Below, in pieces: positions 10,961 through 63,446 of a stretch of 64,000 nt of DNA. Under the pieces are notes generated by a model that ran no database searches, was not told where the DNA came from, and saw nothing but the letters and a program-made list of their open reading frames with translations. Origin of the DNA: an uncultured Hellea sp. (GTDB lineage: Bacteria > Pseudomonadota > Alphaproteobacteria > Caulobacterales > Maricaulaceae); the NCBI GenBank assembly GCA_938007935.1, contig CALLMD010000029.1, forward strand, positions 17,889 through 81,888. Reading direction: 5' to 3'. A program made the position numbers and the translations under genes. The stretch's first letter is position 1; every line of letters begins with the position of its first letter.

Positions 10961-12365
10961 TTATCCCCTGCGATCTAACGGCAATAAACGGTAAAATAAG
11001 CAACGGAAATACAAGCAAGACAGATATCGCTGACAATCCACGAAGCGTTTTAGGGGCCTGAACAAATTCATTTTCGGGCTGTTCAAACCACATCGTTTTC
11101 ACAAGCCGCAGATAATAAAAAGCGCCAATAACAGAGGCTATCAACGCCAAGACAACAAGCCATGTTAAATTAGCTTCAACAGCGGGGGCAAATGCAAACC
11201 ATTTGCCAAAGAAGCCAAGCAGAGGCGGAATACCCATGAGCGAGAACATAAAGAGAGATAATATTATCGCCAAACTCTTATTAGACTTGGAGAGTCCAGA
11301 TAGATCTGAGATTTGCTCAACCATCCCATTGCGAATACGCATTTGGAGAATACAGGCAAATATTCCAATGACCGTAATTACATAAATACTCATAAAAATA
11401 AGCATACCTTTGACCCCTGCTACTGTTCCTGCAGCAAGCGGCACCAAAGCATAGCCCATATTCGCAATCGACGAATAAGCCATCAGGCGTTTTACATTGG
11501 TTTGCGCTAAGGCCCCAATTGCGCCGACAAACATTGATAACACCGCAAGCACAATGATGACCTGCTGCCATTGCGTGACGATATCGCCAAATGGCCCAAC
11601 AACGAGACGCGCTATCAAGGCCATAGCGGCAAATTTAGGCGCGGCTGAAAAGAAGCCAGTTACGGGCGTAGGAGAGCCTTCATATACATCAGGTGTCCAC
11701 ATATGAAAAGGCACGGCAGAAATTTTAAAGGCTAATCCACAGAGTAAGAAAACCATACCCGCGATAATACCCGGCGTCGCGCCCTCTGACACGACCTGCG
11801 CAATTCGGTCAAATTCTAGGGAGCCCGTAAAGCCATAAATCAAAGACGAACCATAAAGAAGTAGGCCCGACGAGATTGCGCCGAGAACGAAATATTTAAG
11901 TCCCGCTTCTGATGCTCTTAAGCTATCGCGGTTAAAGGCTGCCATGACGTAAAGCGCCAAGGATTGCAGCTCAATCCCGATATAGAGCGAAAGCAAGCTA
12001 TTGGCTGACACCATAATCGACATACCAAGTACCGCGTAAAGCACGAGAACTGAATACTCATATCTGTCTAATTTTTCCGTCTGGAAATATGACTTAGAGA
12101 ACATGAGCGCAGCAGCCGCTGAAAGCCCCATAAACATGTTCACGTAATGGCTATAATTATCAACGCGCAACGCCCCTTTAAAGGCCTCGCCTGTTGGCTG
12201 TCCTAAAAGAAGACCAATAAAGGCAAAGAGGATTAACAATCCAACGGCGATATAACGCACGATAATTGAACGGTCTTTATCTTTCGAAACGCCAAACCCA
12301 AGAAGTAATGATGCCGTAACAGCCAGCAATAGCTGCGGCGCGAATAATGAAATCGTTTGCAACAT
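10932..12365 (-). CDS. nuoN: NADH-quinone oxidoreductase subunit N
   Basis: 477 residues, about 14 membrane helices. It is one of the three antiporter-like proton channel subunits of complex I; the conserved motif PFHMWTPDVYEGSPTPVTGFFSAAPK (about 219-244) is the family hallmark, with Lys and Glu residues buried in helices. It lies last in the nuo run, 2 bases after nuoM, and overlaps birA. Confidence 0.96.
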   Translation of the reverse strand: MLQTISLFAPQLLLAVTASLLLGFGVSKDKDRSIIVRYIAVGLLILFAFIGLLLGQPTGEAFKGALRVDNYSHYVNMFMGLSAAAALMFSKSYFQTEKLDRYEYSVLVLYAVLGMSIMVSANSLLSLYIGIELQSLALYVMAAFNRDSLRASEAGLKYFVLGAISSGLLLYGSSLIYGFTGSLEFDRIAQVVSEGATPGIIAGMVFLLCGLAFKISAVPFHMWTPDVYEGSPTPVTGFFSAAPKFAAMALIARLVVGPFGDIVTQWQQVIIVLAVLSMFVGAIGALAQTNVKRLMAYSSIANMGYALVPLAAGTVAGVKGMLIFMSIYVITVIGIFACILQMRIRNGMVEQISDLSGLSKSNKSLAIILSLFMFSLMGIPPLLGFFGKWFAFAPAVEANLTWLVVLALIASVIGAFYYLRLVKTMWFEQPENEFVQAPKTLRGLSAISVLLVFPLLILPFIAVRSQGIIALAAESLF

Positions 12366-50796: not shown

Positions 50797-51528
50797 ATGT
50801 CTGATAAACCTTTATCTGGACGAGTCACCTTAGTGACAGGCGCATCGCGTGGTATTGGATATGCCGCTGCCCTCGCCTTAGCTGAAGCTGGCTCTCATGT
50901 CGTCGCAATTGCCCGAACTCAAGGCGGACTTGAAGATTTGGATGACGCCATATCAGCAAAAGGCGGCGACTGCACACTCGTCCCGATGGATTTAAAAAAT
51001 CTCGACGGCATTGACCGTCTTGGCGGGGTTATCAATGAGCGCTGGGGACAGCTTGATGGCCTATTTGCCAATGCCGGCATTTTGGGAGAAATTACTTTAG
51101 CCGCGCATACAACGCCTAAAAGCTGGGATGATGTCATCGCCACAAATCTGACAGCGAATGTACGTCTTATTCGGTCATTAGACCCCCTACTGCGTAAATC
51201 TGCATCGGGACGCGCTGTTTTTCAAACATCAGGTGTTGCTGCTACCCGCCGGGCTTATTGGAGCGCCTATGCAGCCTCTAAAGCGGGTTTAGAAGCCTTT
51301 GTGCAATGTTATGCCAAAGAAGCCGAAAGCTCTTCTCTGCGCGTAAATCTTTTAAACCCTGGCGCTACGCGCACAGCCATGCGCGCAAAAGCAATGCCCG
51401 GTGAAGACCCAAACACCCTCCCCAATCCAGCGGAGCTCGCGCCGCTCATTGTGGAAATGCTTTCACCAGAATTTGAGGCAAATGACACCCTCGTTACCTT
51501 CAGAGAGACTCAGCACTTTCAAGCTTAG
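50797..51528 (+). CDS. Short-chain dehydrogenase/reductase
   Basis: 243 residues of the classical SDR fold: TGASRGIG (about 14-21), NAGILGE (91-97), the Ser strand and YAASK (about 158-162). It uses NAD(P)H for an alcohol-ketone step; substrate unknown. It starts 5 bases after purF and ends the run. SDRs are often found at this spot after purF in the class. A short inverted repeat CCGTCA-N7-TGACGG follows the stop (51537-51555) and may be a terminator. Confidence 0.88.
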   Translation: MSDKPLSGRVTLVTGASRGIGYAAALALAEAGSHVVAIARTQGGLEDLDDAISAKGGDCTLVPMDLKNLDGIDRLGGVINERWGQLDGLFANAGILGEITLAAHTTPKSWDDVIATNLTANVRLIRSLDPLLRKSASGRAVFQTSGVAATRRAYWSAYAASKAGLEAFVQCYAKEAESSSLRVNLLNPGATRTAMRAKAMPGEDPNTLPNPAELAPLIVEMLSPEFEANDTLVTFRETQHFQA

Positions 51529-52346
51529 CCCTAAATCCGTCACAAAACTTGACGGTTCTATCCTGTCATCAGACTCGGATTTTAAAAAAACCCGCAAAAG
51601 AACAGAACCCTGTTGATTTTTTCCTTCGGAAAAATTCAACGAGGACAGTCCGCGAGAGCGGTATCCCGATGGAATACCAAATAAAAAAAGTGTTTTACGA
51701 GACGCAACTCTCGCGGCGATGATTTTTGTGTAGCGGTATCTTCGCCTTTCCCGCAGTTACACCCGTACACGATCTCAATTTCCAAATCGCTAAGTGCAGC
51801 GGTCATACTCCTCTACACAGACCCGGCACCTCAATAGACGTTACCCTATTGCGCTCAGTCACATCGTCTAACCCGCCGCTAAGCCAACGATCACTCAACT
51901 GTCCGTGCAGGTCAAAACTTACATCATCGAGGATATTTTCCCGACAATAGATGAAATATAGACTGGTTCTCGTAACTGAGGATTAATCTCTCAATAGCCC
52001 TGAAATGGTCGGATTTATTGGTATTTTCACTAAGGATTGAGTACTACCATCATAGTAAAATTGCGTATGGCGTAAGGTTAAATACAGAAATTGAATTTTT
52101 GAAATTCAATACCATTCAAAACTTAATTTGAATGGCGCGAGTGGCCTGCAACTATGTTAATTAAAACAGTGACTTGTTACCACTTTAGGGTTAAAAAATA
52201 GCCGTGAACATATCGTGAAAATGGGAACAGTATGCCCACCACATAGATAAACACGACGCAGGCCAAGGCGAGGAATATCCAATAGCCAGCCTGATACGCG
52301 AGTCATTAAAATAGCCTCTTATACCACGGACCTTTCGCCCGCTTTG
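51529..52346. other. 818-base gene-poor junction with nested inverted repeats
   Basis: This stretch lies between the host SDR and the first phage gene. Three paired elements are seen on the plus strand: a hairpin at 51612-51640 (GTTGA...TCAAC, with TTTTTC/GAAAAA and a CTTC loop), CCGCGAGAG at 51650-51658 pairing with CTCTCGCGG at 51708-51716, and between them GGTATCC/GGAATACC (51660-51678). The whole looks like a folded RNA. On the minus strand, 52177-52302 could encode a stretch with one membrane helix (GYWIFLALACVVFIYVVGIL) but without a start codon, perhaps a truncated gene. The prophage attachment site should lie in this interval. No terminator, tRNA or integrase was seen. Confidence 0.5.
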
Positions 52347-52892
52347 CTAATTCCGGGAATAAGTTCCATCATTAAAGCTCGACTTATTATGACCAGATCG
52401 AGACGCGAACCAGAAAGCAAGCGTCATCTCAAAGCTGCTCACCATAGCCAGCATTAGATAGCGGTTCTCATCAGTCAGCCCGACAGTCAGCAAGCTATAA
52501 CCAGCATACACGGAGACAATAGCCGTCAGATAGATTGTAATGCTTGGTCGGATAATGGCGCGCATAAAATTGGCAATATCGCCAAGCTTGGACTTGCCCC
52601 AGACGATTTTACTTAAATCGCTTTCAGCTTTAATACCCGCTTTGAATACATCGAGGGAACCTTCCATATCAGCAAGAGCTATATCGCGCTCACCCTCTTG
52701 CGCATCCAAAGCCCCTTGAAGTGCTGCCCGCTCCATTTCAAAGGCGTAAACCTTTTCTTCATGGTCATATTTTGCAGATATGCGCTTTGTGTCTTCACGG
52801 TAAATGTCGCGCTCATGTTTGCGCTGCAAAGCCCCGCCGACTATGCCGATGATAGGAGACGCGATGATCGAAAATATTTCTAATACAGCCAT
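52347..52892 (-). CDS. Phage holin-like membrane protein
   Basis: 181 residues. The N-terminus ASPIIGIVGGAL is weakly hydrophobic and is followed by a long charged helix (about 25-100). Two membrane segments lie at about 112-135 and 143-165. The plan resembles holins of the three-segment type found in gene-transfer-agent and marine podovirus lysis cassettes. Position next to the M15 endolysin supports lysis. Its start overlaps the endolysin stop by one base. A tail or minor virion role is the alternative. Confidence 0.6.
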   Translation of the reverse strand: MAVLEIFSIIASPIIGIVGGALQRKHERDIYREDTKRISAKYDHEEKVYAFEMERAALQGALDAQEGERDIALADMEGSLDVFKAGIKAESDLSKIVWGKSKLGDIANFMRAIIRPSITIYLTAIVSVYAGYSLLTVGLTDENRYLMLAMVSSFEMTLAFWFASRSGHNKSSFNDGTYSRN

Positions 52893-53335
52893 TATGCGGC
52901 CCTCTTTTTTAATGTGCCTTTGAGATTATCATTCGCAGCCCAATAGCGGCGGGCCTGTTTACTTCCATACCAGAAACGCTTGCGGCCCATATCAACATGA
53001 AGCCAAGTTGAGTAATATCCCGTCCCCGTAAAGCCAACCGCGCGGCAAGCTGAGAGAACATGAAACCGATTATGCCCATGCAAAGATATATCAAGCGCAA
53101 GCTTTTTATGCTCGCTTCTAGGAGCGCCGCCTATGCGTTGATTGTACCAAAATGACCTATGGGCGCTATTTATAACTATAGGCTTGCCTAGCGCCGTTCT
53201 AACAGCCTGTATTTTGTCAAAAAACTCAGGCCACCAGTAAAATTCACCGCTTTCAGGACACGCAAATTCATGCGGCAAAAAATTAGGCCACCGTTTTGCA
53301 TCCCAAGGCGCTAATGTCCAATGTGAGTAAATCAC
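52892..53335 (-). CDS. Phage endolysin, peptidase M15 (D-Ala-D-Ala carboxypeptidase type)
   Basis: 147 residues from a GTG at 53335, four bases after the preceding stop. A longer frame to an ATG at 53407 would overlap the upstream gene by 68 bases. NSAHRSFWYNQRIGGAPRSEH (from about 56; His75 in SEH), LALDIS (Asp82) and WLHVDMG (His113) give the zinc ligand set of the M15A family. It cleaves peptide stems of peptidoglycan for lysis. No signal peptide is seen, so export would need the holin. Confidence 0.82.
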   Translation of the reverse strand: MIYSHWTLAPWDAKRWPNFLPHEFACPESGEFYWWPEFFDKIQAVRTALGKPIVINSAHRSFWYNQRIGGAPRSEHKKLALDISLHGHNRFHVLSACRAVGFTGTGYYSTWLHVDMGRKRFWYGSKQARRYWAANDNLKGTLKKRAA

Positions 53336-53339
53336 AAGG

Positions 53340-53597
53340 CTATTTGACCGCCACGCACTCGCTTGACGTGACAGCGCCGCCATCAAGGCCGATATTATTC
53401 GCGCCATCCTTAATTCTTGCGGTGCACTCGCTAAGAGTTAAATCGAGAAACGTATCTTTACCAATTGAACCGTCTTGCTCGACATATTCGACAACGCCGT
53501 TATATTTTGGAGCCGTATCTGGTAGCCACATAATGCCAGCGGCCCCAAGTAATACAACACCGATAAAACCGCCCGTAGTTTTTTTTGTTCTATTCAT
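53340..53597 (-). CDS. Small exported or anchored phage protein, 85 residues
   Basis: A basic start (NRTKK), a hydrophobic stretch at about 9-26 and a short periplasmic-type domain with two Cys (CTARIK and SECVAVK), which could form a disulfide. No lipobox. It sits in the lysis region between the sulfatase and the endolysin, where spanin or lysis-regulator genes are often found, but it lacks the coiled-coil of i-spanins. Its ATG overlaps the sulfatase stop (TAATG). Function unknown. Confidence 0.7.
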   Translation of the reverse strand: MNRTKKTTGGFIGVVLLGAAGIMWLPDTAPKYNGVVEYVEQDGSIGKDTFLDLTLSECTARIKDGANNIGLDGGAVTSSECVAVK

Positions 53598-54979
53598 TAT
53601 AAAGTCCTTTGCTCATCAGATAGCTTGCCCGCATTGCCGCGTAATTGCACATCACCAAGGCTTTCGCCCCATGCCCGCAGAGCCGAACGGTAAATTTCAG
53701 TTATTCGGCCACTAATCTTGCCGGCGAGGTTATTAAGCTGTTCCGCGTCACGTTCCGCGTATATTTCCAGCCGCGTACCGTCCAAGTTAAGAAAAACGTC
53801 ATGAGCGTTAGCCACATCTAAATGACCAGCAGGGCTATGCATACGCAGGACAGGGCTTCTATTCGCCGGCGGTTCATCGCGAGTATTGTTTTGAGCCGTT
53901 AGCCAGAATATCGGCTTATCGCGGCTTTCTTTGAGCCCCATCATGATAGGCAGGAAGCTTTCACCGTCTTGCGTACCGTCAGTTGACCAGCCAAGCATCT
54001 CAGCAATCGTAGAGAGAAAATCAATACCGCAGATAGTGGCGTCAATTTCACCGCCCGCTGGAATATCGCCGCCCTTCATTGCGAAGAAGGTTCCAATACC
54101 GCCATTGTAGAGATTACCCTTGCATCCCCGATATGGCCCCATGCAGGCGGCTTGATCCGCAGACGTTGGCGATAGGTAGCGAGTACCGCCGCCATTATCA
54201 GCCGTGATAATGATAATAGTGTTATCGTACTGGCCTGTTTTTTTAAGGTGCGCGACCATACGGCCAAAAGCCACGTCAGAGCCATAAATAGCGCCGAGAT
54301 ATCTGGCGCGCGCACTGTCACGGTTAAACTCGCCGCTTTCACGGTATTTTTCTTTTTCATTGGCAGGTGCAACGGCGTCTAACCACTCTTGCTCATAATA
54401 GCAGGGATAATGCGGCGTATCGAAAGCCACCCGCGCAAGCCAGGGCTCGTCATCCGCGGCGAACTCAATAAACTTGTCAGCGGCATATGCGTCACGCTGA
54501 GTATAAGCCACTCTAGGGTCTAAACCCTTTAGCGCCTCATCTGTTGTCGGCGTTGTTCCGTCTGGCAATACAGGGAAGGCCCACCCATTATATTCATCAA
54601 CAGATAAATCAGCCATGCTTTGCGCGCCATCAGCGCCCATATGCCACTTGCCGAAATGAGCCGTTCTGTACCCGTTGTCTTTCGCAAGTGAATAGAGCGT
54701 TTGGTCAGTTACCGAAATGCCTGTGCTATCATTCCAAAAATCATTCAAAGACGTGTCAGCAAATAGCGTAGTATAAACGCCGTTTTGCGCCGTAATGCGG
54801 CCCGTCATCATGCCGTAACGGGATGCAGAGCAAACAGAGGCAGGCGTCAAGTATCGGTTAGCCCGAATGCCGTCACGTGCCACCTTGTCCATATTTGGCG
54901 TATTGTTGCCAACACCCCATCCCATGAATTTAACGTCACCAATGCCAGCATCATCTAAGTCAAGAATAAGTACGTTCAT
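53597..54979 (-). CDS. Type I sulfatase (alkaline-phosphatase fold) in the prophage
   Basis: 460 residues from the ATG at 54979 with AAGG close upstream. ILDLDDAG (metal Asp9, Asp10), the formylglycine motif C50-S-A-S-R54 within CSASRYGMMTGR, FGKWHMG (Lys111, His113) and TADNGGG (Asp261, Asn262) are all in place, so the enzyme should be active after a host formylglycine-generating enzyme converts Cys50. There is no signal peptide, so it may be packed on the virion or freed at lysis. Phosphonate or other phosphohydrolase relatives lack the CxAxR motif. It lies among tail and lysis genes, suggesting a role in opening a sulfated polysaccharide. Confidence 0.9.
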   Translation of the reverse strand: MNVLILDLDDAGIGDVKFMGWGVGNNTPNMDKVARDGIRANRYLTPASVCSASRYGMMTGRITAQNGVYTTLFADTSLNDFWNDSTGISVTDQTLYSLAKDNGYRTAHFGKWHMGADGAQSMADLSVDEYNGWAFPVLPDGTTPTTDEALKGLDPRVAYTQRDAYAADKFIEFAADDEPWLARVAFDTPHYPCYYEQEWLDAVAPANEKEKYRESGEFNRDSARARYLGAIYGSDVAFGRMVAHLKKTGQYDNTIIIITADNGGGTRYLSPTSADQAACMGPYRGCKGNLYNGGIGTFFAMKGGDIPAGGEIDATICGIDFLSTIAEMLGWSTDGTQDGESFLPIMMGLKESRDKPIFWLTAQNNTRDEPPANRSPVLRMHSPAGHLDVANAHDVFLNLDGTRLEIYAERDAEQLNNLAGKISGRITEIYRSALRAWGESLGDVQLRGNAGKLSDEQRTL

Positions 54980-54983
54980 GGCC

Positions 54984-55106
54984 TTACTCAATCTCGCCTT
55001 CTGAAAATTCGCCAATATACAGCTTAACCTCAACGGCGGGATTTATGCTGCCGTCTTCGTTTTTTGTCTGTTTGGTTTTAGATACTTTTTTTGGCTTCTT
55101 TGACAT
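54984..55106 (-). CDS. Small phage protein, 40 residues
   Basis: The minus strand from the ATG at 55106 encodes 40 residues, a Lys-rich N-terminus (MSKKPKKVSKTKQTKNEDG) and an acidic C-terminus (GEFSEGEIE). AGAGGAGG lies 8 bases upstream, inside the end of the tailspike gene, and the stop lies 4 bases before the sulfatase ATG. The strong ribosome site and fit in the operon are the evidence. No family recognised; it may be a chaperone or adaptor for its neighbours. Confidence 0.6.
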   Translation of the reverse strand: MSKKPKKVSKTKQTKNEDGSINPAVEVKLYIGEFSEGEIE

Positions 55107-55107
55107 A

Positions 55108-57969
55108 TTATATGCCTCCTCTATAAACCTCGCCACGATGGAAAGTTGCTCCAATTCTCAGAACATTTGTTGGATTTGGCGTATAGTTTTTCTTACGCAT
55201 GACTATATTTAGCGATAGGGTCGCAAAGCTATTCTCATCAATGAGAGCGTTGCCTTTAATTAGGTGAGGCTCGCCTACAACTTGGCTTAACGCCCCTGCA
55301 GGGTGACCGTAAGTGTCATAAGTTGCCAGAGAGGTTCCTGTTGTTTGAACATCAAGAACGCCGGGGGTTCTATAGCCAACAGAAACCTCATTATCAGGCA
55401 ATGCCGTAAATGAAACGACCGTTCTCATAACGCCAGAATAAACAGCTTTTTCATCCCACGAATTTGGAATTTGAATAGAGATAGACGCAACCACAACATC
55501 AGTATTATCAGGCATGGCTTGTAAGTCGGCATCTCGCAAAGTTATCAAGGACATAGCTGTTGAGTTTATTCTAGTGACACGCGCCGTCGCAGGAATAGTT
55601 GTCGCGCTCGAATTAAAGGCGTCACCTCTAAGAAGCTCTTGAAACTCATCATCATCAGTTTTGACAATAAAGACCTCATCCCCGTTAGAATTTTCAACCG
55701 TGAAAATAGTCGGTGCAGGAGCGGCCGCAACAGCCGCATTATTCGCCAAATCAGCCAAAGTAAGGGTCTTTTTAAGCGGCCCGACCATCATGTGAGATAT
55801 GACGCACCCCGCCGCAAATGTCGGCTTTGTAGGGTCAACAGGGTCACTAGGGTCAATAACAACACCCGTATCGCCAAGGCCTAGAAGACTGATACACCCA
55901 AGAACAGAAACCGCATCATCTTTTGCCCCCTCAAAAGTCAGTAAATCTCCGTCAGTATTGGCGCGCACTATGGAGAGACCAGGCTCATCCCATTTTGCGG
56001 CCCGCAGTAGAGGCCCCGCAGGACCGCGCCTTGCAACTAAACCCGTCCATCTATCTTGCGTATAATCGGGAACACCTAAGCCCGCCGTGATAGCGCCATG
56101 ATCCAAAGTCACACCCGTCGTGCTGTCATAAGCAAAATCAGGAGCAATGCCGCCATTATTCACAAATTGACCATTATAGGCTTTTCCAACAGATGAATTA
56201 TAAGCCGAATTGAACAAAACACCTATTGCGCCAGAGCTTAGAGCCTCGCCTGATACAACATTAACGTTATCACCTTGCTGGACAAAAACATCGGCCAGCA
56301 CACGTACATCACCGTTACTATCCAGCTCATTATTTACGTTTTGGCCGTTATCTTCACCGCGAACATTTACGAGCGTGATATTCGTCACGCGGCCCGTATC
56401 GTTCACCGTCACTGTGTTAATTCCTGTGTCGATTTGACCTAAAAGAAACTCACCAGTAACGAAAGTGACACAGACTTGACCATTTACAATTCGATCAAGC
56501 ACGCCATGCGCTCCAGTTCCAGGCTGAGAGAAAGCAAACATAACCCGCGTGACAGCGCCAGCAGGGCCGACCCATGCAGGATAAGCAGTGCTATCAATAG
56601 GATTTCCTGCACTGTCTAAAAGCTCAAATGTGTTGCCTGTAATGGTGCCGACTTTGAAAAGAGGCTTGTTTAATTCACCACGAGCCGCAGACGTGTCGCC
56701 AATTACCCTAATAAACTGTCCTGTAGTCAATAGAGTGCCATCACTCACATCGACGAAAGTTTGAGCGCCGAGAGCGATATTAGTGACCGCAATACCTTCT
56801 CTTATCGTACCGCCGTTCATTGTCGTTTCAGGCGTAGCAGTCACCAAGGTGGCGTCATCAACGTCAATACAGCTAATAGCGCCGCCAAATTGCGCACCGT
56901 GGCCGTCATTGAAACCAGTGTAAAGATTTGTCCAAGTGTGATTAGATGAGCCGCGAACCACAGAAACACCGTTTTCGCCGCCGTGTATAGAAGTTACGCC
57001 ATCAGCAATAAAGTCATGATGGTTCATGAGCGCGATTTGGTCAGCCGTTGCGCCTGCATTTACATCAGCAGGAAAACCAGTGCCCGGCGTGCCCTCAATA
57101 TGAACGTTTTTCATTGAGCCGCCGAACGAAGGTTGACGGCCATTGGCACCATTAATCCAAATACCGTTAATCGGATTATCTAAAGACGGCTGTTCAAGTT
57201 TGAAATTTTCCCAAACAGGATTAACCGCGGCTTCGCCAGCATTGAAGCCGTTCTCATAAACAGTGCCGTATTTCCAACCTATGCCGTAAATATTTTTAAA
57301 TGTCGGATTTACAGGCCATTCAGCGCGCACAATAAAATTAGTTGTTGAGCTCATATCAAGATTAAAGCCGTCAACAACGATATTATCGCCAATATCAAAA
57401 AGATCGTCCAGCGCCGCCGTCACTTTTAGATTTATACGCCCTTTAGGAGCTTTGAGCGTAAAGCCATCAGGAACAACAATCGTGCAGCCGACAGGATAAG
57501 TTTCAATTCCCGTAGGCTGTTGAGGCAAAACAGTGAGCGTATGAATACCGACCAAAACCGCCGCTTGCATCGCGTCATTAATCTGTACGCAAAAATCATC
57601 AGCGCTAGTCACGTCATAGACGAAAGCGACATCAGACGGCGCAACACCAGCAACCGTGCCAGTAGCAAGGCCAGAGAAAACAAGCTTTGTGTCCCATGCG
57701 GTTTGAACAACACGGCTAGTTGAAGGGTCAGTAATTTGCCCGACGATTGACTTGCCTTTAATCTCTAGGAGCGCAAAATAATCAGGGCTATATACAGTGA
57801 TAAAGTCGCCAACTTTTGCAAGATTATCGTCTAATTCTGCGAAGGTGTAAAATCCGTCAGCAATAACCGTAGCTAAAGCCTCAGTTTCGTTACGTTCCCA
57901 AACTGATATTGCGCCGTTCTTCGCGTCCTGAGAACGACTTTGCGCCGCGCGTCCTGAATTTGTCGCCAT
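55108..57969 (-). CDS. Phage tailspike / tail-fibre protein, 953 residues
   Basis: Residues about 30-75 (IADGFYTFAELDDNLAKVGD...YSPDYFALLEIKG) match the N-terminal module of two sister tail proteins and probably anchor it to the tail. From about 100 to 620 there are repeated Asn/Gly/Val strands with IHGGENGVSVVRGSSNHTWT, typical of a right-handed beta-helix, as in polysaccharide-binding or -cleaving tailspikes. The last ~200 residues look like a jelly-roll or trimerisation tip. Catalytic residues are not evident. It is followed by the 40-residue gene and the sulfatase. Confidence 0.78.
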   Translation of the reverse strand: MATNSGRAAQSRSQDAKNGAISVWERNETEALATVIADGFYTFAELDDNLAKVGDFITVYSPDYFALLEIKGKSIVGQITDPSTSRVVQTAWDTKLVFSGLATGTVAGVAPSDVAFVYDVTSADDFCVQINDAMQAAVLVGIHTLTVLPQQPTGIETYPVGCTIVVPDGFTLKAPKGRINLKVTAALDDLFDIGDNIVVDGFNLDMSSTTNFIVRAEWPVNPTFKNIYGIGWKYGTVYENGFNAGEAAVNPVWENFKLEQPSLDNPINGIWINGANGRQPSFGGSMKNVHIEGTPGTGFPADVNAGATADQIALMNHHDFIADGVTSIHGGENGVSVVRGSSNHTWTNLYTGFNDGHGAQFGGAISCIDVDDATLVTATPETTMNGGTIREGIAVTNIALGAQTFVDVSDGTLLTTGQFIRVIGDTSAARGELNKPLFKVGTITGNTFELLDSAGNPIDSTAYPAWVGPAGAVTRVMFAFSQPGTGAHGVLDRIVNGQVCVTFVTGEFLLGQIDTGINTVTVNDTGRVTNITLVNVRGEDNGQNVNNELDSNGDVRVLADVFVQQGDNVNVVSGEALSSGAIGVLFNSAYNSSVGKAYNGQFVNNGGIAPDFAYDSTTGVTLDHGAITAGLGVPDYTQDRWTGLVARRGPAGPLLRAAKWDEPGLSIVRANTDGDLLTFEGAKDDAVSVLGCISLLGLGDTGVVIDPSDPVDPTKPTFAAGCVISHMMVGPLKKTLTLADLANNAAVAAAPAPTIFTVENSNGDEVFIVKTDDDEFQELLRGDAFNSSATTIPATARVTRINSTAMSLITLRDADLQAMPDNTDVVVASISIQIPNSWDEKAVYSGVMRTVVSFTALPDNEVSVGYRTPGVLDVQTTGTSLATYDTYGHPAGALSQVVGEPHLIKGNALIDENSFATLSLNIVMRKKNYTPNPTNVLRIGATFHRGEVYRGGI

Positions 57970-57984
57970 GATAAAAGTCCTCTT

Positions 57985-58488
57985 TTATGCTATTTTGAGA
58001 AGGCGAACCCAACCGCCCGTTACATCGGTAAATCCGACTAATGTTGAATTTGTTTGCGCCTCGATGCTTAAAACCTGCCCGTCACTCACAGCGAATAAAT
58101 CAGGGTAAACATTGGCCGCGCTGTCATGATTTGTGGCGTCACGTAAGTAATTATGGCCCTCCATTGAGGAGTATTCCGCGCCGTCGATCATGATCCGCTC
58201 ACGATGAGCCGCCCGCGCACTGTTATCGTCGAAAAAGTTAAGGACGATATCAATCATATAGACGCCGACAGGAAGCTTGACGTCGCCACCAGAAACAGAG
58301 GTTCCGATAGTATCTATAGAAGGTGTGCCTATGAGTATTTCATTCCAAGGCGCGCCAATATTAGCGATAGTATTAGGCGTGATAGGAAAGCGCGCATGTT
58401 TCATAGACAGCGTGATTTTATCAGGAATTTCCCCGCCCTGATTAAATTCAGAGCCGAGATTATCAGGCGTTATGAACTGCTTAGGCAT
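57985..58488 (-). CDS. Phage tail appendage protein with NLGSEF N-module
   Basis: 167 residues. The N-terminus MPKQFITPDNLGSEFNQGGE mirrors that of the 236-residue protein at 60.9-61.6 kb, so both probably dock on the same virion site. The C-terminal ~120 residues look like a compact beta jelly-roll, seen in short fibre tips. It starts 16 bases after... the next gene on the strand begins at 57969. No enzymatic motif. Receptor binding is inferred from context. Confidence 0.7.
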   Translation of the reverse strand: MPKQFITPDNLGSEFNQGGEIPDKITLSMKHARFPITPNTIANIGAPWNEILIGTPSIDTIGTSVSGGDVKLPVGVYMIDIVLNFFDDNSARAAHRERIMIDGAEYSSMEGHNYLRDATNHDSAANVYPDLFAVSDGQVLSIEAQTNSTLVGFTDVTGGWVRLLKIA

Positions 58489-58492
58489 ATAT

Positions 58493-60844
58493 TTATTGCT
58501 TGACCATCACAATGCCCGCAACATTGAGCGGAGCCGCGCCAGTGCCGTCAGTTTGGTAACGCTCGCCAGTAGCAATACCGCCCGCACCCGCCGCCGTATC
58601 ATCTGCGAAAGGCAATAAAATAGGGTCTATAGCAATCCACTGTTGCCATACACCGCCGACACGAGCGCGAGTAAACGTCTCGACAATACCGCCGCCAGAA
58701 CTACTGACCAGCGTATAAGTCGCGCTACCATTAGTGAGCGTACCGCTGTAAAAATATCTTTTTGCGCCCGCTATACTAAATGTTGGTGCGTCACCCGTAA
58801 TCGTTGTTGAATTGGGATGATTGACTATTTGCACCGTGTTAGATGGCGCAGCGTCCAAGTCAAAAGTATCAGAGCCAACAAGTGATAATTGGTCAATTTC
58901 GTTTTTTGTGAAATCATTAAGAATTTCAGGAGAGCTATAAAGTTCAACAAGTCCTTTTTCAGCTTTAAACCCACTGTGTGTGCGCTCGATAAAATAAAAG
59001 CCATTTTCAGGATTGCCAGACGCAACATTTGCATCAACCTTATCCCTAAAGAAATAGGAGTCTTGATTGAAGTAAAAGCGATATGTACCGTCCGCAACAT
59101 GCGCCAATGCAGTCGGGTCGCTCGTAATCTTAGCAAACTCACCATCAAATGGTGGCGTAGCTGGCTTTATAAGCTCGAATGTGTCGCCAACTTTCTCAAT
59201 AGCCTCGACAGTGCTTGCGCGGCGGTTAAAATTACTATTCGCCCCGCTACTAAGATTAACCCGCCCGTCGCCAACATCAGAAGCATTTAAAAGGTTGTCA
59301 TAACTGACAGCTAGGCCGTTTTTAAAGGTGGTGAAAAAAGTACCACCATCCCCCTCATGAGCAAAAACAAGATGGAACGGCTTTAAATTGTTTGTAAATT
59401 CATTAACCTCAAGAGCGCTTGGCTTCTCGACCGGGCAATGAACAAAAAATTCAACTTTGAAATCAACAGCAGTCGATGAGCCCCCAACGCAAGGCGTTAA
59501 GAAATAGGACGTTCCTTTTTCGAGGTACGCAAATATCTCGCGGCTTTCACCTGAAACAAAGCGATCACCAGAGCCATCAAAAACGTCAAAAGAACCGTCA
59601 GGAGAAACGTCAGTCGTTCCTATTCTAAGAAAAGCCCCCGTAGCCCCCGTATAAGTAACAACGCTATGAGGAATGCGGTACATGCCAGTAACAGGAGGAC
59701 GGAAAATATACCGTGTGTCTGAATTGACATTTGTTCCATCGTTTTGAACAAGAGCAACCGTCTTTTCGTTAATTAGCTTTTCAGTATAATCACACGGAGC
59801 CCACTCGTTCGGAATACCCGCAGAAATATCGGGCTGATCCGTAGCATCGGCGCGATTGATAGCTTCCTGAACAAAAACATTATCATCTATCGTCTTTGTC
59901 GTAACCCCGTATTCAATACCCGTCGTCACATCACGGTAACAATCAAATCTTGAAATAACACCAACTTCGGCCACAGGTGTCGCCACAAACGGCGTCCAAA
60001 GCGCGATTTCAGCCAACGTAGCAGAGCCGCCAGCCGTTGCGCCTCCAGCATAAGTAAACAAGCCCGGTCCCGCAGGAACAGGATTGCCATTAGCATCAAC
60101 CGCCGTCGATTGCGTCACGGTATGCGTAAATAACTCACCCGCAGCGTAAACCGTGCCACCCACCCAAGCCTCGCCAGCATCAACAAGCCCTTGAAGCGCG
60201 GCAATCGCAGTATCTTGCGCAGCTTGACCCGCAACAAGCGCCGTAATAGCCGCCGCATTTATGTCAATATCAGTCCGATTGGCCGCTGCAACAGCGTCTT
60301 GAGCCGTATCAATCACCACTTGCGCCGCCTCAATTATGTCACTTTCAGCTTGGGTCAGATTGTCGATAGCCTGCAGAGCCGTTACCAGAGCCTCTAAAGC
60401 ATCAATATCGCCCTCATTGACCGTCAAACGGCCATCTTGAGCCGTGTCTAAAACAGCTTGCGCCGCCTCGATCACGTCGCTTTCAGCCTGGGTTAAATTA
60501 TCAACAGCTTGAAGCGCCGTAACAAGGGCTTGCAGAGCCGCAACATCAGTTTGATTTATTGCAATTTGAGGATTAGCGACCGCCGCACCAGAGCTGTTAA
60601 CAACAGTGTCAAAAGCCGCGCCGTTTATACTTCCAGTAATCTCAAGGCGTGTTGTATAGCCGTTACCCTCAATTACGACAAAATCACCATTAACAGCTAA
60701 AGGAAGCTCAGAACGTAGAATATAGCCCGGAGCCTCGACCATTGCTTGTGTTTGGTCATCTGCCACCATAAAGGAAAAAATGCGCCTAACTTTATCGTCA
60801 GAGCTGTAAGAGACGGGTTGAAGTGCTGTTAATTTAGTTGCCAT
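58493..60844 (-). CDS. Phage tail-fibre protein, 783 residues
   Basis: An N-terminal module (MVEAPGYILRSELPLAVNGD...IEGNGYTTRLEIT, about 35-70) is shared with two other tail proteins here. Residues 100-230 form an Ala/Gln/Asp-rich helical stem containing two near-identical 46-residue repeats. A middle beta-rich part follows, and the end (about 700-783) ends with WQQWIAID...GGIATGERYQTDGTG, like pyocin-knob/fibre tips. It is the largest stem-and-tip fibre of the array and is a likely receptor-binding protein. Confidence 0.78.
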   Translation of the reverse strand: MATKLTALQPVSYSSDDKVRRIFSFMVADDQTQAMVEAPGYILRSELPLAVNGDFVVIEGNGYTTRLEITGSINGAAFDTVVNSSGAAVANPQIAINQTDVAALQALVTALQAVDNLTQAESDVIEAAQAVLDTAQDGRLTVNEGDIDALEALVTALQAIDNLTQAESDIIEAAQVVIDTAQDAVAAANRTDIDINAAAITALVAGQAAQDTAIAALQGLVDAGEAWVGGTVYAAGELFTHTVTQSTAVDANGNPVPAGPGLFTYAGGATAGGSATLAEIALWTPFVATPVAEVGVISRFDCYRDVTTGIEYGVTTKTIDDNVFVQEAINRADATDQPDISAGIPNEWAPCDYTEKLINEKTVALVQNDGTNVNSDTRYIFRPPVTGMYRIPHSVVTYTGATGAFLRIGTTDVSPDGSFDVFDGSGDRFVSGESREIFAYLEKGTSYFLTPCVGGSSTAVDFKVEFFVHCPVEKPSALEVNEFTNNLKPFHLVFAHEGDGGTFFTTFKNGLAVSYDNLLNASDVGDGRVNLSSGANSNFNRRASTVEAIEKVGDTFELIKPATPPFDGEFAKITSDPTALAHVADGTYRFYFNQDSYFFRDKVDANVASGNPENGFYFIERTHSGFKAEKGLVELYSSPEILNDFTKNEIDQLSLVGSDTFDLDAAPSNTVQIVNHPNSTTITGDAPTFSIAGAKRYFYSGTLTNGSATYTLVSSSGGGIVETFTRARVGGVWQQWIAIDPILLPFADDTAAGAGGIATGERYQTDGTGAAPLNVAGIVMVKQ
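60272..60547 (-). repeat. Two 138-bp coding repeats in the tail-fibre stem
   Basis: Codons 100-145 (60410-60547) and 146-191 (60272-60409) encode 46-residue units starting DVAALQALVTALQAVDNLTQ and DIDALEALVTALQAIDNLTQ. The DNA also matches, with many third-position changes, so the duplication is older than a recent slip. A weaker third copy follows. Each unit is helical and would lengthen the coiled stem. Confidence 0.85.
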
Positions 60845-60853
60845 TTTATTACC

Positions 60854-61564
60854 CTATGCTTGAGGAAACGCCAAGCAAACATCGACACCGAAAGCGTCCT
60901 GAATTTGCTCAGTTGCAAGATTAGTCCGAAGGTCAGCCACAGAGACTAAAACCTTATTGTCAGTGCCAAGCTTGGCGACATTGACTGCATCGGTTGAAAT
61001 GCCGGGCGTGACAAACACACCAGCCGCAGAGACAGAGACAGTGGACGGGGAAGCAGGATCAGGTTGGACGGCCACATTTGTTGAACCGTTACTGACCAGA
61101 CCATCACCAAAGGCCAGATTTCCAAGTACCGAAGCCAGAGTATTGGTTAAATCGTCAAATTCGAGGCCATCAGCCGCGTCAACAACCATTGTTCCAACAG
61201 CGTCAGTGACCGCCTCGACAAAATCAACATCAGTCCAATTAAATGTCGTGGTTAAATCATGGCCATTAGTGCCGCCCGGCGTCACAGTCATAAATCCCGC
61301 AGAGGCCGCGTTTTGTGTCAATGCCGTTTCAGCGGCTTGAAAATCAGTTGCGGTAAAGAGCGCCTTACCGTTAGCGTCAGTATTGAGCAGATTAAGCGGG
61401 TCAGGGGCAACGATTTGAAGCGCAGAGGCAGAAAGTCCGATTGCGCCGCTTATCGGGTCTTTAGCCAGCGTATTATCAACAACGAGCGTGATTTGGTTAG
61501 CCTCGACGCCGCCGATACTAAATTCGGAGCCAAGATTTTCGGGTTTAACAAATAATTGGGGCAT
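60854..61564 (-). CDS. Phage tail appendage protein with NLGSEF N-module, 236 residues
   Basis: The N-terminus MPQLFVKPENLGSEFSIGGV resembles that of the 167-residue protein at 58 kb. The rest is Ala/Thr/Asp-rich with repeated beta-like stretches (TVSVSAAGVFVTPGIS) and no Cys cluster or enzyme motif until a single C-terminal Cys. It is probably a structural tail-fibre or adaptor component. It lies 9 bases before the 783-residue fibre gene and 9 bases after the 103-residue gene. Confidence 0.7.
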   Translation of the reverse strand: MPQLFVKPENLGSEFSIGGVEANQITLVVDNTLAKDPISGAIGLSASALQIVAPDPLNLLNTDANGKALFTATDFQAAETALTQNAASAGFMTVTPGGTNGHDLTTTFNWTDVDFVEAVTDAVGTMVVDAADGLEFDDLTNTLASVLGNLAFGDGLVSNGSTNVAVQPDPASPSTVSVSAAGVFVTPGISTDAVNVAKLGTDNKVLVSVADLRTNLATEQIQDAFGVDVCLAFPQA

Positions 61565-61572
61565 GATGACCT

Positions 61573-61884
61573 CTAAGTAAGTTGATGAGGGACGCTAAAA
61601 GCGTCGCAAATTTTGACAGAGAACGCGCCATTGCCCGCATCCGTGCTTTGAATGTTTGTGTTGAATTGGCCGAGAGGGTCTTGCGCCGTAACTTTCAGAA
61701 CAGCCCGATAATCGTCGCCAAAGATTTCTACTAAATCACCCTTGCGCATATCAGGCAGGGTTGAACGCTTATAATATCCCGGTGCAGCAACATCAGCTAA
61801 AGGCAAAGGTTCATAACGACGCCAGCAACGCACTGGATTATCTTTCGTCGAATGAGTTAAATGTTGAACGGCATGACCCGGCAT
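61573..61884 (-). CDS. Phage tail protein, 103 residues, sharing the APGYY module
   Basis: Residues about 30-70 (VAAPGYYKRSTLPDMRKGDLVEIF, read in parts APGYYKRSTLP and GDLVEIFGDDYRAVLKV) match the module of the 783- and 953-residue proteins. This protein is almost only that module plus a short tail, so it may be the base or a short adaptor. It is the first gene of the minus-strand arm, after the divergent regulatory region. Confidence 0.65.
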   Translation of the reverse strand: MPGHAVQHLTHSTKDNPVRCWRRYEPLPLADVAAPGYYKRSTLPDMRKGDLVEIFGDDYRAVLKVTAQDPLGQFNTNIQSTDAGNGAFSVKICDAFSVPHQLT

Positions 61885-62089: not shown

Positions 62090-62509
62090 ATGCGCGAAGC
62101 AACCATATCTGACATTGATAGTATGCTACGTCTAGGACGGCTTTTTCACAAAGCCAGCCCTTACGCTTCAATAGTTAGATTTGATGATGTTTCCATGAGG
62201 GAAACTTTGAGCAATCTTATTAACTCACCTAGCGGCGTGGTTTTTCTCACAGATTATGCGATTTGTGGCGGGTTGTTGGTTCCAATGCATTTTAACAAAT
62301 CGGTGGTGGTAGCTGCCGAATTATTCTTGTTTTCGGAAAAGGGCTCTGGCTCTGATGTTCGCAAGGCATTTGAGAATTGGTCTGCTGATAACGGCGCAAA
62401 ATTTATCCAAATGTCATGCTTAGTGAACGCAAAAGAAAAGCCTATGCGGCGTCTTTTTTCGAGCTTTGGTTACGAGGCTAAGGAAGTCTCATTTTTGAAA
62501 AAGGTTTAA
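62090..62509 (+). CDS. Phage GNAT-type acetyltransferase
   Basis: 139 residues with MREATISDIDSMLRLGRLF at the start, GVVFLTDYAICGGLLVP and SDVRKAFENWSADNGAKFIQM, the alpha/beta order of the GNAT fold. The acetyl-CoA loop is poorly conserved (GSGSDVRKA), so it may be a divergent member. Similar small GNAT genes lie next to structural genes in many marine phages; their targets are unknown. It lies 1 base before the next gene. Confidence 0.6.
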   Translation: MREATISDIDSMLRLGRLFHKASPYASIVRFDDVSMRETLSNLINSPSGVVFLTDYAICGGLLVPMHFNKSVVVAAELFLFSEKGSGSDVRKAFENWSADNGAKFIQMSCLVNAKEKPMRRLFSSFGYEAKEVSFLKKV

Positions 62510-62510
62510 A

Positions 62511-63446
62511 ATGGCTGCTGTATCAAGTTTAATTGCTGGTGGAACCGCTATCGGCGGGGCTCTGATTGGTTCGCGCTCTGCTTCACGTTCTGCAGATGCT
62601 ATTCAAGAGGGTTCCGACGCTCAAGTCGCATTGGCGCGTGAGCTTTATCAAGACCAAAGAGCTTTAAATCAGCCTTTTTATCAAACTGGTGTTGCGGCTA
62701 ATGCCGCTGCTGCTGAATTAGTCGGCGTAACGCCTGCGCAGGGCGGGGCGTATGCAAACAACAACACGGCCAATCCTTACGGTCAAAACGGCTCGTATGG
62801 CTATAATGGCGGCTTTGGCGGCGGTTCTGATTATAGCGCTGGTGCGGCGGCTTTCGGTTCTGGCGGTTCTTCGAGTTTTGGCGCATTTTCTGGCGGCGGT
62901 TTTAGAGGTTCGGCTGGTCGTGGCGGCGGCGTTACAAATACACCTGCTAATGATGGCGGGACATTTGCAGGACAAAACGGCTTTGGCGGTGGCGCTTCGC
63001 CTGCTGGCCGTGCGTCAAATGACAGCCCTATTTATCAGAACGCTCAATTATCAGCGCTACAACAAAGCCCTGGTTATCAGTTTAGAATGCAAGAGGGGCT
63101 TAACACGCTAGATCAAAGCGCTGCGGCTCGTGGAGGGCTTCTGTCTGGCCGTCATCTTCGCTCCGCAACACAATACGGGCAGGATTACGCATCTAATGAA
63201 TACAATAACCGATTTAATCAGCTTCAAGCCTTATCGGGCGGCGGTCAAGCTGCGGCGTCTAACACGCAAAACGCGGGTTCTAATTTCGGCAATACTGCGG
63301 GCGCGGCCTTGGGGCAGTCTGCAAGCGCTCAAGCAAATTTACATCAACAGCGCGGCTCTATCTATGGCGGGGCTCTTGGTACGGTTGGCGGTATTGCTGC
63401 GGGGGGTATTTATAACCCCTTTAATCCTAAAGGTGGCGGGGGTTAA
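62511..63446 (+). CDS. Phage virion/DNA-transfer (ejection-type) protein, Gly-rich
   Basis: 311 residues. A hydrophobic Gly/Ala N-terminus (LIAGGTAIGGALIG), ELYQDQRALNQPFYQTGVAA, a Gly/Ser/Asn-rich loop, then SPGYQFRMQEGLNTLDQSAAARGGLLSGRH, quoted in part as PGYQFRMQEGLNTLDQSAAA, followed by YGQDYASNEYNNRF. This arrangement recurs in internal virion or DNA-injection proteins of podovirus-like phages. It probably leaves the capsid with the DNA. The plus-strand arm begins just upstream with GNAT. Confidence 0.68.
   Translation: MAAVSSLIAGGTAIGGALIGSRSASRSADAIQEGSDAQVALARELYQDQRALNQPFYQTGVAANAAAAELVGVTPAQGGAYANNNTANPYGQNGSYGYNGGFGGGSDYSAGAAAFGSGGSSSFGAFSGGGFRGSAGRGGGVTNTPANDGGTFAGQNGFGGGASPAGRASNDSPIYQNAQLSALQQSPGYQFRMQEGLNTLDQSAAARGGLLSGRHLRSATQYGQDYASNEYNNRFNQLQALSGGGQAAASNTQNAGSNFGNTAGAALGQSASAQANLHQQRGSIYGGALGTVGGIAAGGIYNPFNPKGGGG

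Follow-up and report, generated by a model that had tools for sequence, protein, structure and literature searches.

The minus-strand reading frame at 53597..54979 of the window (the whole stretch of DNA analysed, 64,000 nucleotides, positions 17889-81888 of contig C29, which ends where the window ends) encodes an S1-family sulfatase of 460 residues, without a signal peptide, within the gene run of a predicted prophage. The enzyme family and the gene context are firm. We tentatively propose, with a probability of about 0.42, that the sulfatase is a late enzyme of this run that would leave the cell at lysis and desulfate host polysaccharide. The mechanism is a reasoned guess. The enzyme would be made late, in the cytoplasm, its Cys50 would be converted to formylglycine, and lysis would release it, unbound or attached to the tail. 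It may then remove sulfate esters from the likely sulfated polysaccharide of the host, and the benefit may be a looser coat or matrix, allowing progeny to spread or adsorb better. Such an action would resemble that of known phage depolymerases and deacetylases, except that sulfate would be the group taken off. To our knowledge, the known phage coat-opening enzymes cut chains or remove acetyl groups. If the proposal is true, desulfation would be added to these activities, infection would be tied to a post-translational modification of the host (formylglycine), and new enzymes for sulfated glycans would be at hand.

The frame has the coordinates given in an earlier note on this DNA, which had named no strand; it is read from 54979 to 53597. 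Its product matches Pfam PF00884 over residues 2-330 (2.5e-37; 129.3 bits, curated cut-off 25). The active site looks intact, as that note had claimed: D9, D10, C50, R54, K111, H113, H190, D261, N262 and K287 are all kept. The sulfatase signature motif is C-x-[PA]-x-R, and at Cys50 it reads CSASR. The predicted structure of the protein is a confident sulfatase fold. The best matches among solved proteins, by sequence and by structure, are sulfatases, with 19-25% identity to the 50 solved entries listed. The signal peptide is indeed missing, as the note had stated. In alignment A6, built from the query plus 43 of its 119 listed relatives, a single query residue precedes the first conserved strand position, compared with 6 residues in P0002, 12 in P0073 and at least 20 in the other 41 of the 43 relatives. 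With one residue before this position, no N-terminal virion-anchoring domain was found in the sulfatase. The predicted protein is a bare catalytic unit, with no room for an N-terminal tail anchor. From S1 sulfatases (PF00884) such as the carrageenan sulfatases of S1_19, S1_16 and S1_15 it differs in lying in a prophage run and in having no signal peptide.

A recent insertion of a host gene, the phylogenetic outcome that the earlier note had set against its own reading, is ruled out. Grouping of the query with the two sulfatases of the host was rejected in an AU test (p 0.0098), and no near relative was found in 60 related genomes or, among the matches listed (at most 4 candidates scored per genome), in 384 other genomes of the class. 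The sulfatase has 353 relatives among 7066 candidate proteins; of these 120 were listed, one being the query itself. The best full-length one among those listed, P0002, shares 33% identity and likewise has no signal peptide. Some match was present in 34 of the 61 related genomes (own included), the best by E-value outside the own genome reaching 31% identity. Across 385 genomes of the class, 11 including the own one pass 1e-30, with 882 bits for the own genome and 127 bits for the next. Among named genomes (best 80 of 577), the top match has 30% identity, with values up to 32% further down. In a tree of 36 sequences the query joins P0002 (SH-aLRT 99) and the two host sulfatases stand apart; the AU tests were run on 34 of these sequences, L231 and L016 having been dropped as very long branches. 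GC3 is 0.497 in the sulfatase gene, 0.397 and 0.398 in the genes of its 953-aa and 783-aa neighbours, and 0.487 in the portal gene. The higher value of the sulfatase would be compatible with a later arrival, and is no proof of it.

Phage records matching the sulfatase number 17, all below 60% identity (12 unannotated fecal contigs, three Salmonella and two Campylobacter phage records), and 12 were obtained with P0002 as the query. A single-sequence search for viral relatives returned two stretches, neither a relative, and a search of viral contigs with the pair alignment A3 recovered only L014 and L016 again. In BFVD, 8 of 176 matches have E <= 0.001, and all eight come from giant viruses; the absence of phages among them proves nothing. 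The match of the sulfatase to phrog_19870 was considered as proof of phage origin and rejected, as the host sulfatases and the bacterial proteins P0003 and P0039 match this family more strongly.

The element that carries the sulfatase is, by its predicted genes, a podovirus-like prophage beside a host SDR gene. Its prophage nature, proposed earlier, is upheld on two sides. Host genes flank it on the left, and phage head genes lie on contig C38, whose opening 141 bp are an exact copy of the end of the window's contig (63860..64000). The C38 genes include a portal (phrog_1216, 3.1e-23), a major head protein (phrog_371, 2.2e-13) and a head closure protein Hc3 (phrog_578, 2.8e-73). Near the contig end, on the plus strand, lies the predicted DNA ejection protein of the prophage (62511..63446, phrog_598, 1.6e-26), preceded by an acetyltransferase-like gene (62090..62509, plus strand, opposite to the sulfatase run; phrog_1249, 1.2e-11). 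The acetyltransferase-like, DNA-ejection and internal-protein genes (62090-63446 and L017:5-2781) are oriented against the flanking head and tail-type genes. A minus-strand frame of C38 (L017:16165-17190) contains a long low-complexity repeat of the AAARAAAWDA type. No sulfatase frame was found at 11 viral loci linked to this phage through relatives of its ejection protein, within the stretches fetched, several of them short; this counts against a conserved role in the relatives of this phage.

The left border of the insertion is marked by the host SDR gene (50797..51528, plus strand) and a dispersed repeat copy (51551..51781, plus strand). G004, the closest relative, has a uvrD-like frame 86 nt after its SDR gene; in the present genome phage genes follow the SDR gene, and its own uvrD-like frame begins contig C31. 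The SDR/uvrD-like adjacency rests on this one relative, as 7 of the other 8 same-genus genomes compared have different genes after the SDR gene. The dispersed repeat measures about 230-250 bp (for example, G000:C31:9-240). Several contigs begin with it, so that the repeat probably breaks the assembly. It was also considered as a terminal inverted repeat of the prophage, which is ruled out by its dispersal (43 matches in the genome). The other end of the prophage was sought at the far end of C38, which matches only itself.

The genes read from 61884 down to 52347 are all on the minus strand. The run begins with a 103-aa protein, most of which is a shared N-terminal domain (61573..61884), followed by four putative tail appendages: a 236-aa protein (60854..61564), a 783-aa protein (58493..60844), a 167-aa protein (57985..58488) and a 953-aa protein (55108..57969). 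The N-terminal domain of the 103-aa protein is shared with the 783-aa protein (7.8e-6) and with the N-terminal ~75 residues of the 953-aa protein (7.6e-9), and the N-terminus of the 167-aa protein resembles that of the 236-aa protein (46% over 39 residues, 1.7e-4). A 40-aa basic ORF (54984..55106) lies between the 953-aa protein and the sulfatase. Downstream of the sulfatase are an 85-aa protein that is possibly lysis-related (53340..53597; one hydrophobic N-terminal stretch, no Pfam match), an M15-type peptidase predicted to be an endolysin (52892..53407; PF08291 1.3e-19, phrog_17373 peptidase 4.2e-29, phrog_894 endolysin 8.2e-20) and, as the last gene, a 181-aa protein with hydrophobic stretches that may be a holin (52347..52892; match to phrog_6637, a family with no functional name, 6.7e-5). 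The packing is tight: the stop of the 953-aa gene is followed by 1 nt, the 40-aa ORF, 4 nt and the sulfatase, and the stop codon of the sulfatase and the start codon of the 85-aa ORF overlap as TAATG. The end of the M15 peptidase gene overlaps the start of the 181-aa ORF in the same way, as TAATG.

The operon of tail appendages and lysis genes described previously stands in part. The tight run ending in a predicted endolysin agrees with that description; the tail-appendage identity of the neighbours is drawn from their shared N-termini and position, and neither Pfam nor PHROGs names any of them a tail protein. The 783-aa protein has a weak match (8.1e-6) to phrog_4896, named glycerophosphoryl diester phosphodiesterase. 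The 953-aa protein found no relative but itself in a search of 5.8 billion proteins, in which scoring covered the 7993 candidates with the most words in common, and its structure model (mean pLDDT 32.6) is too poor for use. Pattern scans of the minus strand, which yielded no more sites in total than shuffled sequence, gave nothing promoter-like from 54980 to 57175 and nothing terminator-like from 60884 to 52585. The same scans, again at the level of shuffles, placed a promoter-like match inside the sulfatase gene (54423-54395) and a terminator-like match upstream of it, within the 236-aa gene (60898-60884). The reading of the run as a probable operon rests on gene spacing.

Maturation presents the main difficulty. 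The host genome (92% complete) encodes two PF03781 proteins. The catalytic Cys pair of the formylglycine-generating enzyme (FGE) lies in the motif C-x4-C-x-R. A host FGE, which the earlier note had marked for checking, is present, since one of the two proteins (L006:1405-2379) carries the pair as C287/C292; the second is without it. No match to an anaerobic maturase was found in the host genome. The host FGE begins with a lipoprotein-type signal (LSAC), suggesting that sulfatases of this group mature outside the cytoplasm. Because the only FGE with the Cys pair has such a signal, a maturase may be missing from the cytoplasm. The phage enzyme would have to be activated in some other way if the FGE acts in the periplasm only. 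Both sulfatases of the host itself have predicted export signals, a lipoprotein-type N-terminus in one and a hydrophobic N-terminus in the other. Among named relatives of the host FGE, the best is from Hellea balneolensis (65%), with Alterisphingorhabdus, Henriciella and Algimonas further down, which suggests that the host is likely marine.

Sulfated polysaccharides are borne by many aquatic bacteria and algae. The host genome encodes six distinct sulfotransferase-family proteins, two of which (L254:8701-9516 and 11272-12132) lie inside C10:252356-268693 (L254:357-16694), together with Wzy_C, Wzz/kinase, Poly_export, sugar transferase, glycosyltransferase, epimerase and Polysacc_synt_2 genes. 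This region is likely a Wzy-type capsule or exopolysaccharide cluster with a sulfated product. Because the sulfotransferases lie within such a cluster, the coat of the host itself is the nearest candidate substrate, and we infer that the phage sulfatase would act on it. An algal substrate is possible, and the predicted sulfated polysaccharide of the host is nearer.

The IMG/VR contigs were scanned for sulfatases, with stop-to-stop frames checked by profile. Sulfatase frames were present in 16 of 60 loci, representing 13 distinct contigs; L231, L232 and L015 bring the number to 16 IMG/VR contigs. On seven of them, an S1 sulfatase is accompanied by at least one gene that PHROGs names as packaging, head or tail, a pairing that is new here. 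L014 carries portal, major head protein and tape measure genes, L050 (the same as L227) two baseplate wedge proteins and a tail fibre, and L231 a central tail fibre J. The terminase large subunit is found in L048, L046 and L044, and in L047 as a weak match (6.4e-7) ~6.7 kb from the sulfatase. In L014 and L044 the sulfatase and the structural or packaging genes run in the same direction with ORFs packed between them, and in L048 and L046 the terminase is on the strand opposite to the sulfatase. The count of seven leaves out L045 and L057, which lie outside the PHROGs scan, and L015 and L232, which have sulfatase frames whose context was not judged. Also uncounted are L011, L012 and L013, where by eye the sulfatase either has non-phage neighbours or marks the limit of the phage region. 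No structural name was found among the genes scanned with PHROGs in L016, L059, L089 and L090. The sulfatase of L010 has a signal-like N-terminus and, by eye, lies among replication-type genes.

The sulfatases of 11 viral contigs (L014, L016, L044-L048, L050, L057, L059 and L231) form one side of the tree with an SH-aLRT of 95, or 97 for the nine that remain without the two long branches (L231, L016), which are a caveat to this grouping. Six of them, aligned in A4, share 20-23% identity with the query. Like the window enzyme they are S1 sulfatases on viral DNA; unlike it, 7 of the 11 have a hydrophobic N-terminus (none in 3 of 11; starts were picked mechanically, and that of L044 is unclear), so that export during infection looks commoner in this branch than release at lysis, a point against the proposed release of the window enzyme. 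Placement of the query within the viral branch was weakly rejected (AU p 0.037). The query thus tends to fall outside it, and the contexts above serve as analogy, with no inheritance implied. Since this branch stands apart, it is likely that sulfatases entered phages on more than one occasion.

The earlier note had suggested a virion-borne enzyme. That the sulfatase is a tail-bound virion protein that desulfates the coat during adsorption we regard as somewhat unlikely. The missing signal peptide would fit a component whose assembly takes place in the cytoplasm, and the gene adjoins tail-type genes. Comparable positions occur elsewhere, with the L227 sulfatase ~3.4 kb downstream of a tail-fibre gene that comes after two baseplate genes, and the L231 sulfatase two ORFs after the central tail fibre J gene. 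However, the tail-type neighbours of 103, 953 and 783 residues share an N-terminal domain, whereas the sulfatase has no N-terminal extension, and the alignments to its ten best structural matches begin at residue 1 and end at residues 442-458. The hydrophobic N-termini in 7 of the 11 viral sulfatases also speak against a virion-borne part. Phage capsule depolymerases and tail-borne deacetylases are likewise encoded with tail-type genes, and action on a surface polysaccharide is predicted here as well. In contrast to these, the window enzyme would remove sulfate instead of cutting the chain or removing acetyl groups, and has no N-terminal anchor.

We take the FGE-sulfatase domain to be the maturase fold, distinct from the sulfatase itself. 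Proteins with this domain have been described in prophages (PMC12724379, PMC11318856), FGE genes in Pseudoalteromonas phages (PMC10232697), and sulfatase activity among the changes in a Vibrio harveyi lysogen (PMC6359870). In the available text of other reports, sulfatases are treated as bacterial (PMC9853417) or the sulfatases are bacterial only (PMC7416419, PMC8125080). A sulfatase has been named among viral auxiliary genes of deep groundwater and read there as part of sulfur metabolism (PMC10029852). The window sulfatase shares with it a location on viral DNA. By extension, the gene could be a passenger, auxiliary or of the lysogenic-conversion kind, giving the lysogen access to sulfate or sulfated glycans. 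In addition to that auxiliary sulfatase, the phage FGE genes are also read as auxiliary (PMC10232697). This explanation appears quite improbable here, since without a signal peptide the sulfatase could not reach polymers from within a living lysogen, and the host already owns two sulfatases with predicted export signals. Moreover, the end of the gene overlaps the start of the next one, and a scan at the level of shuffles gave no same-strand promoter-like site within 2 kb upstream. The protein might instead act, as other members of its superfamily do, as a phosphatase or a phosphonate-ester hydrolase, which is hinted at by a PF01663 match (1.4e-6) and by PehA (phosphoric/sulfuric ester hydrolase) as the best NCBIfam match (49.6 bits, far below the cut-off of 900), or it might be inactive for want of formylglycine, its maturase being possibly in the wrong compartment. 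This explanation is likewise quite improbable: K111, H113, H190 and K287 are kept and the closest solved proteins are sulfatases.

Sulfatases had been called rarely reported in phage structural operons. The literature agrees: no description was found in the open literature searched, as far as the available texts go (most subscription papers and all bioRxiv preprints were outside its scope). The rarity is qualified by the seven other viral contigs that pair a sulfatase with structural or packaging genes. With phage-associated sulfatases spread over more than one branch of the tree, the case is of wider interest than one odd gene would be, and the recurrence makes the idea testable beyond one genome. 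It is somewhat unlikely that tailed phages of several unrelated lineages have recruited formylglycine sulfatases as late, particle-associated decapsulating enzymes that complement depolymerases and deacetylases by desulfation, in the present prophage aimed at the sulfated coat of its own host and matured by the host FGE. The recurrence also suggests a second look, guided by gene context, at viral sulfatases now catalogued as sulfur-cycle auxiliary genes.

A further protein family accompanies some of these viral sulfatases. The four of its five copies compared with PHROGs gave no match, and neither did the three compared with Pfam. Its members lie straight after the sulfatase in L048, L050, L057, L059 and L090, and are linked to each other by BLASTP, the weakest link having an E-value of 7.7e-5.
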